Origin: Flavobacterium urocaniciphilum | GTDB taxonomy: Bacteria > Bacteroidota > Bacteroidia > Flavobacteriales > Flavobacteriaceae | NCBI RefSeq assembly: GCF_900110615.1 | Contig: NZ_FOEI01000002.1 | Location: 434,001-498,000 of the forward strand | Direction of reading: 5' to 3' | Length of the DNA: 64,000 nucleotides | In this document: positions 15,227 through 52,003 of the stretch, piece by piece | Layout: each line of letters begins with the position of its first letter | Numbering within the stretch: the stretch's first letter is position 1 | The notes under the pieces: model-generated | What the model was told of the DNA's origin: nothing | The model's database searches: none | Seen by the model: only the letters and a program-made list of their open reading frames with translations | Program-made: the position numbers and the translations under genes

Positions 15227-15280
15227 GTTTAATTTTTTGGTTAAAAGCTAGAATAAAATGTATTTACTATTTTGAATATA

Positions 15281-15315
15281 GTAAATCATAAATCGTAACT
15301 CCCAAATCGTAAATT
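15281..15315. repeat. Degenerate heptad array 3' of murB
   Basis: Five contiguous 7-base units on the plus strand beginning GTAAATC, ATAAATC and GTAACTC, in strict phase from 15281 up to the murB stop codon at 15314-15316. A short hairpin (TTTACTAT 15263-15270 with ATAGTAAA 15278-15285) adjoins it. Same periodicity as the arrays at 16371, 23001 and 50463. Confidence 0.6.
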
Positions 15316-16370: not shown

Positions 16371-16405
16371 CTTGGCTCTTTATACTTTTTACTTTTTTCT
16401 TACAA
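16371..16405. repeat. Degenerate heptad array 3' of the rhodanese-thioredoxin gene
   Basis: Read on the plus strand, CTT recurs exactly every 7 bases at 16371, 16378, 16385, 16392 and 16399 (for example CTTTATA, CTTTTTA, CTTTTTT). The array reaches into the stop codon of the minus-strand gene ending at 16400. On the minus strand it reads as TAAAAAG-like units also found at 23001-23042. Confidence 0.6.
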
Positions 16406-48511: not shown

Positions 48512-48644
48512 ATTTCACTTGAATTAACATTAAAATTTTGAATGTTAATTGTTTCTTAATTCTTCAAATTGTTATTATTTTATTGCATTAGACTTACAAA
48601 CTATTTTTTTGTTACAAATCGACTTACAGTTTCACTAAAAATAG

Positions 48645-48671: not shown

Positions 48672-50456
48672 ATGACACTACAAGAAATTCTTACTTCTGA
48701 AATACAAAAAGCAGTTTCTAAATTGTTCGATATTTCTATTGATAGAGTTGAATTTCAATCAACAAAAAAAGATTTTGAAGGCGATATCACTATGGTTGTT
48801 TTTCCTTTAGTTAAAGTATTAAAAGGAAATCCAGTTGAAATCGGTACGAAAATTGGTGAATATTTAGTTGAAAATGTAGCGGAAGTATCTAGGTTTAATG
48901 TAGTGGCAGGATTTTTAAATCTTGTAATTGCAGATGAATTTTATTTCAATTTCTTTAATGGAATAAAAAATAATGCTCAATTCGGATTTGTTGCACCAAA
49001 AGAAGGTGAAAAAGCAGTAATGGTTGAGTATTCTTCTCCAAATACAAATAAACCGTTGCATTTAGGTCATATCAGAAATAATTTATTGGGTTATTCCGTT
49101 GCGGAAATTATCAAAGCATCAGGTAAAAAAGTATATAAAACGCAAATTATCAACGATCGTGGAATTCACATTTGTAAGTCGATGTTGGCTTGGCAAAAAT
49201 TCGGAAACGGACAAACGCCAGCTTCTACAGGTTTAAAAGGTGATAAATTGGTTGGTAATTTTTATGTAGAATTTGATAAGGCTTATAAAGCAGAAATTAA
49301 TGCTTTAATGGCTGAAGGTAAAACGGAAGAAGAAGCTAAAAAACAAGCTCCATTAATTTTAGAAGCGCAACAAATGCTTTTAGATTGGGAAAATGGTAAA
49401 CCTGAAGTTATTGAACTATGGAAAACCATGAACCAATGGGTGTACGATGGATTTGAAGTAACTTATAAAAACTTAGGTGTCGATTTCGATAGTTATTATT
49501 ACGAAAGTAATACGTATTTATTAGGAAAAGATGTAGTAGAAGATGGTTTAAATCGTGGTGTATTCTTTAGAAAAGATGATGGTTCGGTTTGGATTGATTT
49601 AACGGCTGATGGTTTAGACGAAAAAATAGTTTTACGTTCAGATGGTACTTCAGTTTATATGACTCAAGATATCGGAACAGCTATTCAACGTGTTAAAGAT
49701 TATGCAGATGTTGGTGGAATGGTTTATACGGTTGGAAACGAACAAGATTACCATTTTAAAGTGTTATTCTTAATTCTTAAAAAATTAGGATACGATTGGG
49801 CACAACATTTGTATCATTTATCATACGGTATGGTGGAATTACCAACCGGAAAAATGAAATCTCGTGAAGGTACAGTTGTAGATGCAGATGATTTAATGGC
49901 TGAAATGACTACAACAGCACAAGCTATTTCTGAAGAATTAGGGAAATTAGACGGATATAACGACGAAGAAAAAGCAAGTTTATATAAAACAATTGGTTTA
50001 GGTGCGTTAAAATATTATATGTTAAAGGTTGATCCGAAAAAACAAATGATGTTTAATCCAGAAGAATCAGTTGATTTTAACGGAAACACTGGACCTTTCA
50101 TTCAATATACATACGCTCGTATTCAATCGATTTTAAGAAAAGCGGATTTTGAATATAAAAACGTAAGTACTTCTAATGGTTTAGAAATGCACGAAAAAGA
50201 AAAAGAATTAATCAAACAAGTTCAATTGTTTCCAGATGTAATTCAAAGTGCAGCTGACAACCATAGTCCGGCTTTAATTGCAAATTATACATACGATTTA
50301 GTAAAAGAATTTAATTCTTTCTATCAAAATGTATCGATTTTAGGAGAAGACAATATGGATAAAAAGATTTTTAGAGTTCAATTGTCTTATGTTGTTGGAA
50401 ATACAATTAAAAATGCATTCGGATTATTAGGAATCAATGTTCCAGAACGTATGTAA
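48672..50456 (+). CDS. argS: Arginine--tRNA ligase
   Basis: A 594-residue class I aminoacyl-tRNA synthetase charging tRNA-Arg. The N-terminal additional domain (~1-110) recognises the tRNA D loop. The catalytic HIGH motif is SSPNTNKPLHLGHIRNN (~122-138) and the KMSKS-like motif is KMKSREGTVVDADDL. The C-terminal DALR anticodon-binding domain contains NTGPFIQYTYARIQSILRKA and ends NAFGLLGINVPERM, the family terminus. Full length. It is followed by a heptad-array/hairpin region and then a different operon. Confidence 0.95.
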   Translation: MTLQEILTSEIQKAVSKLFDISIDRVEFQSTKKDFEGDITMVVFPLVKVLKGNPVEIGTKIGEYLVENVAEVSRFNVVAGFLNLVIADEFYFNFFNGIKNNAQFGFVAPKEGEKAVMVEYSSPNTNKPLHLGHIRNNLLGYSVAEIIKASGKKVYKTQIINDRGIHICKSMLAWQKFGNGQTPASTGLKGDKLVGNFYVEFDKAYKAEINALMAEGKTEEEAKKQAPLILEAQQMLLDWENGKPEVIELWKTMNQWVYDGFEVTYKNLGVDFDSYYYESNTYLLGKDVVEDGLNRGVFFRKDDGSVWIDLTADGLDEKIVLRSDGTSVYMTQDIGTAIQRVKDYADVGGMVYTVGNEQDYHFKVLFLILKKLGYDWAQHLYHLSYGMVELPTGKMKSREGTVVDADDLMAEMTTTAQAISEELGKLDGYNDEEKASLYKTIGLGALKYYMLKVDPKKQMMFNPEESVDFNGNTGPFIQYTYARIQSILRKADFEYKNVSTSNGLEMHEKEKELIKQVQLFPDVIQSAADNHSPALIANYTYDLVKEFNSFYQNVSILGEDNMDKKIFRVQLSYVVGNTIKNAFGLLGINVPERM

Positions 50457-50462
50457 TATAAA

Positions 50463-50539
50463 GTTAGAATTTAGAATTCAGAAGTTAGAAGTTTCAATTT
50501 TTATGTTCTGAATTCTAAATATTGAATTCTAAATTTTTA
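50463..50539. repeat. Palindromic heptad array between argS and the SGNH gene
   Basis: Eleven contiguous 7-base units (for example GTTAGAA at 50463 and 50484, ATTCTAA at 50512 and 50526). The first half is phased on GAA and the second on its complement, so the array folds: TTTAGAATTCAGAA (50470-50483) is perfectly complementary to 50506-50519 across a 22-base loop. It fills the gap after argS and covers the TTG at 50522. Confidence 0.7.
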
Positions 50540-50545
50540 AAAAAA

Positions 50546-52003
50546 GTGAATCAAAACAAACCATATTTTTTTCAAGCTTGGGCAATTGTATGTATTGCAA
50601 TTCTTTCATTTATTGGATTTAAGTCGTTTTTACCAAAAAAATTATTTCCTGAAAGTTCAAATAACAAAAATGTTGTTGTAGATAGTTTAATGCTTGACGC
50701 AGTAGCGGAAGGTGGAAACTTGAGTGAAGAAGATACGCTTTCAAACAAAACCATAAAATTCGTTTCGAACCCGTTAGGAATTCAGTTTTCTGATGAAAAA
50801 TTTGAGCAATACAAAGGATATCAATATTTGATTCCTTTTTTTGAAAAATTATATCAGTTAGAAACGAATAAAAAAGGAAAAGCGCGTATTGCTTATTTTG
50901 GAGATTCCATGACGGATGGCGATATGATTGTGCAAGATGTTCGTACACAATTTCAAAGTATTTTTGGTGGAGAAGGAGTTGGTTTTGTAAATATTACCTC
51001 AGAATCTGCCGGTTCACGTGGTTCAATTCTTCATGAATATTCTCAAAATTGGAAAGCACAATCGTATTTAAAAACAAAAAGTCCATTGCGCTCTTTTGGT
51101 GTAAACGGTTCGGTGTTTTTTGCGAAAGACACGGCTAATACAACTTGGGTAAAATACAAAGCGGGAAGAAATCGTTTTTCTACAACTTTAAATAATCCTA
51201 CGGTTTTTTATGGAAGTTCGAAAAATAAAAAAGCCTGCATTCGTCAGATAATTGGAAAAGATACAATTTATAAAAAATTAAGTCCAAATTCAATATTGAA
51301 CGCTACTCAAGTTGCGGGTGATGTTAAAAATGTAAAAGTCAACTTTATTAATGCAGATTCGATTCCATTTTACGGATTTAACTTCGATAATGGAAAAGGA
51401 ATTCATGTTGATAATTTCTCTTCAAGAGGAAATTCTGGATTGCCATTAAGTACTTTTAATGTTGATTTAATGAATGCATTCCAACAAAAATTAGGATACG
51501 ATTTAATCATCCTTCAATTTGGAACGAATGTATTAAACTATGGTTCGTTAAATTATACTTGGTATGAACGAAAAATGACTTCAGTTGTAAATCATTTAAA
51601 AGAATGTTTTCCAGGTGCAGCTATATTAATTATTTCTACTGCAGATAAATCTACCAAATACGATATGCAAATGAAATCCGATTCTGCTGTCGTGCCGTTA
51701 ACATTAGCACAAAAACGTTATGCTGTAAAAGCCGAATCTGGTTTTGTGAATTTATACACCTTGATGGGTGGAGACGGTTCAATGGTTAAATGGGTAGAAA
51801 ATGTTCCGGTAAGAGCCAATAAAGATTATACGCATTTTAATCATAGAGGAGCGAAAGAAATTGCTCAATTAATTTATAAGCAAATCGATACAGGTTATCA
51901 AGAATACAAGCGATTAAGAGCGATTGCTACGAAAAAAGCAAAGCCTAAAAAGGTTGTTAAAGATTCTAGTTTGCCAGTAAAAAATGATACAATTAATGAA
52001 TAA
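50546..52003 (+). CDS. SGNH/GDSL-like exported protein (first of two)
   Basis: A 485-residue protein with an N-terminal membrane anchor or signal (~9-28). I use the GTG at 50546 because the in-frame TTG at 50522 lies within the heptad array. The SGNH blocks are AYFGDSMTDGD (Ser ~121, block I), IILQFGTN (~322-328, block III) and DYTHFNHRGA (D427, H430, block V). A long beta-rich insertion separates blocks I and III, as in AlgX/PatB-like acetyl-handling enzymes. With the next SGNH gene and an MBOAT gene it forms a probable glycan O-acetylation operon. The C-terminal ~25 residues are Lys-rich. Confidence 0.8.
   Translation: MNQNKPYFFQAWAIVCIAILSFIGFKSFLPKKLFPESSNNKNVVVDSLMLDAVAEGGNLSEEDTLSNKTIKFVSNPLGIQFSDEKFEQYKGYQYLIPFFEKLYQLETNKKGKARIAYFGDSMTDGDMIVQDVRTQFQSIFGGEGVGFVNITSESAGSRGSILHEYSQNWKAQSYLKTKSPLRSFGVNGSVFFAKDTANTTWVKYKAGRNRFSTTLNNPTVFYGSSKNKKACIRQIIGKDTIYKKLSPNSILNATQVAGDVKNVKVNFINADSIPFYGFNFDNGKGIHVDNFSSRGNSGLPLSTFNVDLMNAFQQKLGYDLIILQFGTNVLNYGSLNYTWYERKMTSVVNHLKECFPGAAILIISTADKSTKYDMQMKSDSAVVPLTLAQKRYAVKAESGFVNLYTLMGGDGSMVKWVENVPVRANKDYTHFNHRGAKEIAQLIYKQIDTGYQEYKRLRAIATKKAKPKKVVKDSSLPVKNDTINE

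Follow-up and report, generated by a model that had tools for sequence, protein, structure and literature searches.

Heptad arrays with a preferred polarity at gene boundaries of Flavobacterium, viewed from a mirror-image pair between argS and an SGNH hydrolase gene

The 89-nt gap between argS and the downstream SGNH hydrolase gene of Flavobacterium urocaniciphilum (50457-50545 of the window, the 64,000-nt stretch of DNA analyzed here) is phased in steps of seven bases. This raises the question of what kind of element it contains and whether that element is confined to this locus.

Two mirror-image arrays behind argS

Identity at lag 7 amounted to 0.68 over 50460-50535, with 0.65 at lag 14 and 0.64 at lag 21, and the remaining lags up to 24 gave 0.17-0.46. 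The gap is the strongest lag-7 site in the window and the sole place with at least 24 of 35 lag-7 matches; its score was reached by none of 200 shuffles of the same gap. An initial annotation had read it as eleven 7-base units following each other without a break from 50463. The phasing is real, but Tandem Repeats Finder returned two separate period-7 arrays, 50461-50493 and 50506-50535, and excluded 50494-50505 from both, so that the eleven units are actually two arms and an AT-rich turn (Table 1). The first array consists of GTTAGAA-type units and the second of near-complements; GTTAGAA, TTTAGAA and TTCAGAA occur in the gap with their near-complements, and the units GTTTCAA and TTTTTAT match neither arm. 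The stop-side array starts 4 nt past the argS stop codon and reads on the minus strand as AACTTCT-like units with the 3' end toward argS. The second arm points at the SGNH start, which is 10 nt off.

Table 1. Features of the window discussed in the text (positions of the window; a dot marks features given without a strand).
Feature	Position	Strand	Basis
argS, arginyl-tRNA synthetase	48672..50456	+	ORF; Pfam tRNA-synt_1d, DALR_1, Arg_tRNA_synt_N
Stop-side heptad array, AGTTAGA type on argS sense strand	50461..50501	+	lag-7 segment, Tandem Repeats Finder
AT-rich turn between arms	50502..50505	.	direct reading; first-arm end blurred
Start-side heptad array, ATTCTAA/ATTGAAT type, reads toward SGNH gene	50506..50535	+	Tandem Repeats Finder period 7, score 32; inverted repeats
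SGNH/GDSL-type hydrolase gene, likely GTG start 50546	50546..52003	+	homology; Pfam Lipase_GDSL_2
Heptad array, AAATCGT type, at gene edge	15274..15315	+	lag-7 stretch, score 19
Heptad array, AAAAAGT type	16378..16401	+	Tandem Repeats Finder; lag-7 segment
Weak lag-7 stretch upstream of argS	48530..48564	.	score 19, near noise level

As to the flanking genes, the nearest named genome for ArgS among the matches listed was F. difficile (87%). The SGNH protein matched Pfam Lipase_GDSL_2 with an E of 2e-6, under the cut-off of that family. Its start was placed by the ORF tool at TTG 50522, inside the heptad array; relatives favour GTG 50546, from where residue 1 is matched in three of them (G011, G009, G033). 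In two contigs titled as metagenome-assembled genomes of Klebsiella pneumoniae (L056) and Candidatus Nitrotoga (L072), ArgS was 77-78% identical to that of F. urocaniciphilum, which suggests that these bins are probably contaminated or mislabelled.

The arms are mirror images. The GAA-phased half, the complementary half and the stem of 14-15 bp that had been annotated were all recovered, 50470-50483 pairing with 50506-50519 in a perfect 14-bp match. An inverted-repeat search gave 84% complementarity over 25 nt for the arms, and the RNA fold of the gap had a predicted energy of -22.4 kcal/mol (z -4.9). The palindrome results from the head-to-head meeting of a stop-side and a start-side array, and the site belongs as a mirror-image double to a set of polar heptad arrays at gene boundaries. 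By inspection, palindromes made up of stop-side and start-side arrays in one gap also occur at two other loci (L014 and L005), and the pheS gap of F. urocaniciphilum is AGT-phased, then ACT-phased. The palindromic turn emphasized earlier is therefore present here but is not the conserved feature of the arrays.

If the hairpin itself mattered, it might act between the two genes in termination, attenuation or RNA processing. The fold z of about -5 is in favour of this, as is the lower frequency of terminator-like hairpins at heptad stops (17/72) than at other stops (197/487; pooled Fisher p 0.006; 2/16 against 86/243 in an earlier version of the count). By set, however, the p values were 0.77, 0.04 and 1.0, the sole significant set containing orthologs. 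Replacement of terminators by arrays is thus a weak candidate, and the somewhat lower frequency of such hairpins is compatible both with an effect of the arrays on transcript ends and with none. Furthermore, the gap has no GC-rich stem with a T tract and no terminator-like sites were detected in 50300-50800, in agreement with the initial view that a terminator does not explain it. A comparison of 43 argS loci, which yielded 21 distinct gaps of at least 40 nt, gave a fold z <= -2 in just 6 of the 21 and lag-7 P <= 0.05 in 13 of the 21. A conserved hairpin as a general feature was rejected on this basis, and we regard a hairpin function at this locus as barely credible.

Other candidates were dismissed as well. 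A known RNA family was rejected since none of the 13 Rfam matches in the window at E <= 10 overlaps or lies near 50457-50545. A three-frame stop cassette, suggested by 7 not being a multiple of 3, was dropped because many units have no stop codon. The TAnnTTTG sequence, which is the -7 consensus of the Bacteroidota sigma-A promoter (PMC9723704), is absent from the gap. The remark that this is not a normal promoter thus holds for the site itself, but elsewhere arrays often abut ordinary sigma-A promoters.

A family of arrays and its placement at gene boundaries

BLAST of the gap against the F. urocaniciphilum genome gave 53 places at E <= 10, some sites being counted on both strands, and 17 at E < 0.001 including the gap itself. 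Lag-7 autocorrelation was compared with shuffled controls on part of the genome, 864 kb composed of 40 stretches and the window. The excess in intergenic DNA was clear, 39 segments versus 2.0 after shuffling, which supports the dispersed 7-mer-phased family that the initial annotation had suspected. Multiples of seven were also enriched (29 versus 1.3 at lag 14, 13 versus 0.3 at lag 21), as was lag 8 (14 versus 2.0); the largest values among the remaining lags were 7 versus 1.3 at lag 12 and 7 versus 2.0 at lag 16. Coding DNA gave 10 versus 5 at lag 7. Tandem 7-nt units are over-represented relative to other unit lengths in this genome, as is characteristic of heptanucleotide repeats. Unit types include AACTTCT, AAATTCT, AAAAAGT, AAATCGT, AAACAAT, AATCACT and AAATCCC, among others. 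In the AACTTCT type 28 of 45 arrays have 5 units, 35 bp being the commonest size, and AAMTTCY units are reused at 29 intergenic arrays. Around argS, in 80 loci of other species and the window, lag 7 was found in 26 of 318 regions with 3.3 expected.

The genes beside the arrays have no common functional theme, as judged by Pfam on 8 of 27; the names of the array-adjacent genes beyond these 8 are those we presume them to carry. A regulon was accordingly rejected. One stop-side array follows a biotin carrier gene (Pfam Biotin_lipoyl; L003), which we take to be accB, and loci of four other species (L244, L246, L247, L249) have the same flank. Long intergenic arrays with a period of 8, of AACAAAGN and AGTTACTG types, were noticed at L176:4359-4506, L173:8463-8593 and L161:14606-14677, and lag-8 arrays of this genome contain ACTTTG. 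In the argS gap of two other loci (L031 and L213) an 8-nt-phased CTTTGCGC CTTAGTGC CTTCGTGG lies 3' of the heptad array; 8-nt phrases of this kind may occur in other phyla as well.

On the strand that carries ACT or a close variant once per 7 nt, the 3' end of an array tends to abut a gene boundary, as defined by a simple ORF caller. The boundary may be a start codon, a sigma-A -7 box or, where the gene runs the opposite way, its stop codon. Among the 45 AACTTCT arrays of F. urocaniciphilum, 33 had no TAnnTTTG box up to 70 nt from their 3' end; in the others it lay 1, 2, 2, 2, 3, 3, 3, 3, 5, 6, 40 and 50 nt away. Removal of 3 coding arrays left 42 intergenic ones, of which 11 had a box at -3 to +8 nt of the 3' end and 2 had one on the other side. 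When arrays were placed at random, with the gap preserved and not its base composition, the mean was 1.9 and the maximum 7 in 2000 trials. With any boundary counted within 8 nt, the tolerance used in all polarity counts except those in distant Bacteroidota (13 nt), and one gap of >600 bp also removed, 29 of 41 arrays abutted at the 3' end (10.4 expected) and 12 of 41 at the 5' end (9.5 expected). Arrays abutting only at the 3' end numbered 25 and those only at the 5' end 8 (p 0.005).

A 19-nt pattern, AACTTCTAACTTCTAACTT, occurred in 13 of 60 genomes including F. urocaniciphilum. In the 12 relatives, 36 of 50 intergenic arrays abutted at the 3' end (9.3 expected) and none at the 5' end (9.0 expected), in a set from which 2 of 52 arrays were dropped as coding, with one array of genome G005 doubled, orthologous loci repeated and about half of the arrays from G005. 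Reduced to one array per locus (38), still from non-independent related species, 27 abutted only at the 3' end and 0 only at the 5' end (p 1.5e-8). When arrays were detected by periodicity and given the orientation of their core, the 3' versus 5' counts were 13 versus 3 in F. urocaniciphilum and 9 versus 1 elsewhere, the latter set including F. urocaniciphilum locus L181 and repeated orthologs; arrays of ambiguous orientation had no polarity (2 versus 1 and 2 versus 3). A 3-mer count made without assuming a motif pointed the same way: of all 3-mers, ACT had the largest excess of lag-7 repeats, and this excess lay in the 3' half of gaps. Relative to the mean of lags 5, 6, 8 and 9, ACT counts in that half were 81 versus 26 in F. 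urocaniciphilum and 158 versus 18 in related genomes, and in the 5' half 26 versus 14 and 21 versus 9.5, the related set including F. urocaniciphilum loci L208, L211 and L313 as well as repeated orthologs.

About 5% of boundaries carry an array. In the F. urocaniciphilum sample arrays followed 21 of 378 stops (1.0 expected) and preceded 8 of 172 -7 boxes (1.3 expected) and 15 of 271 box-less starts (0.3 expected); start-side arrays, here and in relatives, end 1-7 nt ahead of start codons. In 60 related argS loci the counts were 14 of 171 stops (0.0 expected), 5 of 107 -7 boxes (0.3 expected) and 2 of 103 box-less starts, which with 1.0 expected are not enriched. Since few promoters carry arrays, the mean lag-7 profile over TAnnTTTG boxes (249 in F. 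urocaniciphilum, 191 in relatives) was almost flat. The orientation of the neighbouring gene was rejected as a selector of array-bearing boundaries, both for stops (17/285 tandem, 5/110 convergent) and for starts (13/285 tandem, 4/182 divergent).

Persistence at pheS and argS and arrays beyond the genus

A combination of array and promoter, AACTTCTAACTT-N(0-14)-TAnnTTTGC, was present in 56 of 398 genomes of the genus (100 places among the matches listed), and the reversed control gave 0 matches in the same 398 genomes. Counted from AACTT to TA, the spacing leaves a remainder of 5 on division by 7 in 57 of 91 places and in 36 of 58 distinct strings; the array-to-box spacing is phase-locked. One promoter with this pattern recurs in many species, and in 20 of 20 inspected, all picked for their motif match, it precedes the same gene, which encodes PheS (Pfam Phe_tRNA-synt_N). 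Unselected pheS loci were collected as well, 6 of 29 in the genus and 9 of 17 outside it lacking a found start motif or box. Among the genus loci with a box, 14 of 23 had lag-7 P <= 0.017 with differing units (AACTTCT, AACTTTA, AACTTGA, CTGTAAA, TTTTCAC and CATCTCA among others); lag 7 was not seen at the other 9 of the 23, nor at 8 of 8 box-bearing pheS loci outside the genus. The phase to the box differs among these unit types.

Divergence of the pheS array was 0.073, compared with 0.129 for the flank, in 25 non-independent pairs with alignable flank, and the array was the more divergent part in 3 of the 25. This lower divergence is partly due to the selection of sequences for containing part of the array. 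Of the differences within pheS arrays, 48 of 64 fell on heptad positions 6 and 7. Outside the seed, mismatches at positions 1-7 were 6, 3, 5, 2, 2, 7 and 22 in pheS arrays (45 units) and 18, 6, 6, 5, 7, 3 and 17 in other Flavobacterium arrays (42 units), positions 1 and 7 being the freer ones in arrays of the AACTTCT type. At the argS locus the units likewise differed among the 13 gaps with significant lag 7. The proposed comparison of orthologous loci thus held up in that the position of the array is often kept while its unit sequence changes, and the counter-argument of identical sequence under coding-like constraint does not apply to such a locus. Arrays persist at the pheS promoter and at the argS 3' end while their units change.

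These promoter arrays could be upstream elements or series of degenerate -7 boxes that RNA polymerase reads directly. TAACTTC resembles TAnnTTTG, the spacing to TAnnTTTGC is tight, the array is kept at pheS and ACTTTG occurs inside the lag-8 arrays. Against such direct reading, the site in the window has no -7 box, arrays are equally frequent after stops, before -7 boxes and before box-less starts in the F. urocaniciphilum counts given above, and the phase to the box varies by unit type at pheS. We consider a pure promoter element decidedly improbable.

Beyond the genus, heptads with ACT gave 5542 matches in 148 Bacteroidota genomes, long arrays being counted several times, versus 4451 for the reversed TCA pattern (p 0.15). 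Since the reversed pattern is also common, ACT is not a phylum-wide bias or core. TCA outnumbered ACT in four genomes (G564, G566, G559, G530), where the dominant cores are thus different ones. No lag-7 excess was present in 18 kb of intergenic sequence sampled from other genera and families. In three genomes from a different family of this class, arrays consist of ACTG followed by three nearly free bases. Mismatch between units was 0.09 at position 4 and 0.49, 0.64 and 0.64 at positions 5-7, none of positions 4-7 having been used to find the arrays; this result comes from 20 regions hand-picked from the listed ACT places of these three genomes, and only there are positions 5-7 free. Polarity was present as well. 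After omission of 4 and 3 coding arrays, respectively, and of off-locus gaps and gaps >1200 bp, 13 arrays abutted only at the 3' end and 0 only at the 5' end in the three genomes (22 arrays, 20 loci), and 10 versus 1 in six further Bacteroidota genomes (16 arrays, 30 loci). Stop codons made up 12 of 14 and 11 of 11, respectively, of the boundaries abutted. Two further features were noticed in genome G525: a higher-order repeat on contig C2:603-1060, where the first three ACT heptad arrays (603, 710, 817) are spaced 107 nt apart, and a mirror composite at L409, resembling that of the window, in which each of two convergent genes has its own stop-side array.

The arrays could also be neutral heptanucleotide repeats that arise by polymerase slippage in 7-nt steps and survive in unconstrained DNA, hence at gene edges, an idea that PMC4692102 and PMC4679880 attribute to Mrazek (2007). 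The dominance of period 7 fits this origin, as do the likeness of units within an array along with their difference among species at the same locus, and the lack of a functional theme among adjacent genes. Some arrays are indeed near-perfect copies, as slippage would produce, three in relatives reaching 15-18 units. In the 20 hand-picked regions of the three distant genomes, however, neighbouring units share ACTG and not the next three bases, which slippage by itself leaves unexplained. Slippage in free space furthermore predicts no polarity, contrary to the 27:0 and 13:0 ratios of only-3' to only-5' arrays, and leaves the phase lock to the -7 box unaccounted for. Reuse of AAMTTCY at 29 intergenic arrays would need dispersal beyond local slippage. 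A purely neutral origin therefore appears somewhat unlikely.

Possible function and relation to known heptamer repeats

Control could also take place at the RNA level, with the arrays as mRNA sites near starts for a post-transcriptional regulator such as S1, a cold-shock protein or a CsrA-like protein. Sites of this kind were proposed for the TAACTGA repeats of Beggiatoaceae (PMC4679880), which contain ACT as their core and are for the most part oriented in the same way, and some of our arrays end 1-7 nt before a start codon. But 11 of 42 intergenic arrays in F. urocaniciphilum end at a -7 box and so lie upstream of the transcript of that promoter. Moreover, stop-side arrays, which predominate in distant Bacteroidota (12/14 and 11/11), give the complementary RNA. 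Both points make recognition of DNA more likely than recognition of RNA, and an RNA-level role is very improbable.

Our tentative preference, held at somewhat less than an even chance, is that a heptad array is a cis-acting directional boundary element that functions at the DNA level. This reading is favoured since slippage does not explain the polarity, the free positions beside a fixed core and the phase to the -7 box, and because an RNA-level role misfits the arrays upstream of -7 boxes. A putative directional, head-to-tail oligomer would contact the core once per 7 bp, and a track about five sites long could mark or insulate the edge of a gene or promoter. Candidate effects would be the blocking of transcription that enters or leaves, or assistance to the promoter. 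Against a single DNA-binding protein speak the change of units at one locus and the several unit types per genome, which would be unusual. The boundary reading is further weakened by the low share of boundaries with an array (about 5%), the 9 of 23 genus pheS promoters lacking lag 7, the lack of enrichment at box-less starts in related argS loci, the missing polarity of ambiguously oriented arrays, the lack of a phylum-wide ACT core and the mixed TAACTGA orientations in Microcystis (PMC4679880). The conserved sites occur in genetically tractable Flavobacterium, so that function can be tested at defined promoters such as that of pheS.

A search of open-licence papers gave no description of heptad arrays in Flavobacterium, and passages of PMC6414381 and PMC4060949 contained nothing relevant, but similar repeats are known elsewhere. 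The STRR heptanucleotides of cyanobacteria and long 7-nt simple sequence repeats are over-represented tandem units in intergenic DNA, and the Flavobacterium arrays resemble them in this respect. The polarity, core conservation and promoter phase found here go unmentioned for these repeats in the sections of PMC4692102 and PMC4679880 drawn on here.

Closer parallels are the G-rich heptamers GGGAATC of Xanthomonas and GGGGA(C/T)T of Nostoc (Rehm 2015, PMC4692102). As described there, these heptamers come as a rule in four units and lie mostly in intergenic DNA, close to the ORF on their 5' side irrespective of how that ORF is oriented: antisense ahead of start codons, sense behind stop codons. 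The associated genes share no functional theme, inverted pairs are frequent in Xanthomonas and few in Nostoc, and the paper closes by leaving the function of such repeats open. Period 7, intergenic position, about 4 units, inverted pairs and the lack of a theme are shared with Flavobacterium, whose arrays also follow the rule that the purine strand is antisense before starts and sense after stops. Unlike the heptamers of PMC4692102, however, the Flavobacterium arrays have an ACT/AGT core, abut the sigma-A -7 box and change unit identity at conserved positions. Nor does 50457-50545 contain GG on the plus strand or any CC, and it is thus without the four GGG tracts of G-quadruplex heptamers. Because the arms in the window and the AACTTCT type have no GGG, they cannot form quadruplexes; the rarer AAATCCC type of F. 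urocaniciphilum has GGG on one strand. G-quadruplexes cannot be the general cause of heptad arrays.

The TAACTGA direct repeats of Beggiatoaceae, some Cyanobacteria and five Bacteroidetes (MacGregor 2015, PMC4679880) share with our arrays the ACT core and heptads that are oriented toward and adjoin start codons. In Table 1 of that paper 147 of 170 sets are oriented toward the start codon, and the largest class ends 1 nt ahead of the start. It also gives mixed orientations in a Microcystis sample and one Bacteroidetes species with one reverse set right behind a stop codon. In contrast to the one fixed TAACTGA unit of PMC4679880, Flavobacterium has several unit types, those of the window not being TAACTGA, and many of its arrays lie outside the transcript. 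Starts dominate among the TAACTGA repeats, whereas stops dominate in the arrays of distant Bacteroidota.

It is conceivable, though rather unlikely, that the arrays of Flavobacterium, Xanthomonas, Nostoc and Beggiatoaceae form one class in which about five 7-bp steps mark gene edges. They would then be read by a directional oligomer, assembled head to tail and so far overlooked, or by the transcription machinery; as the specificity of the factor drifted, the units would change but the step length of 7 bp, the polarity and the location would persist. The comparison also means that neither G-quadruplex formation nor translation control suffices as a general explanation, and it gives heptameric repeats a common geometry, with one end at a gene edge and the strand fixed, together with a core that has free positions next to it.
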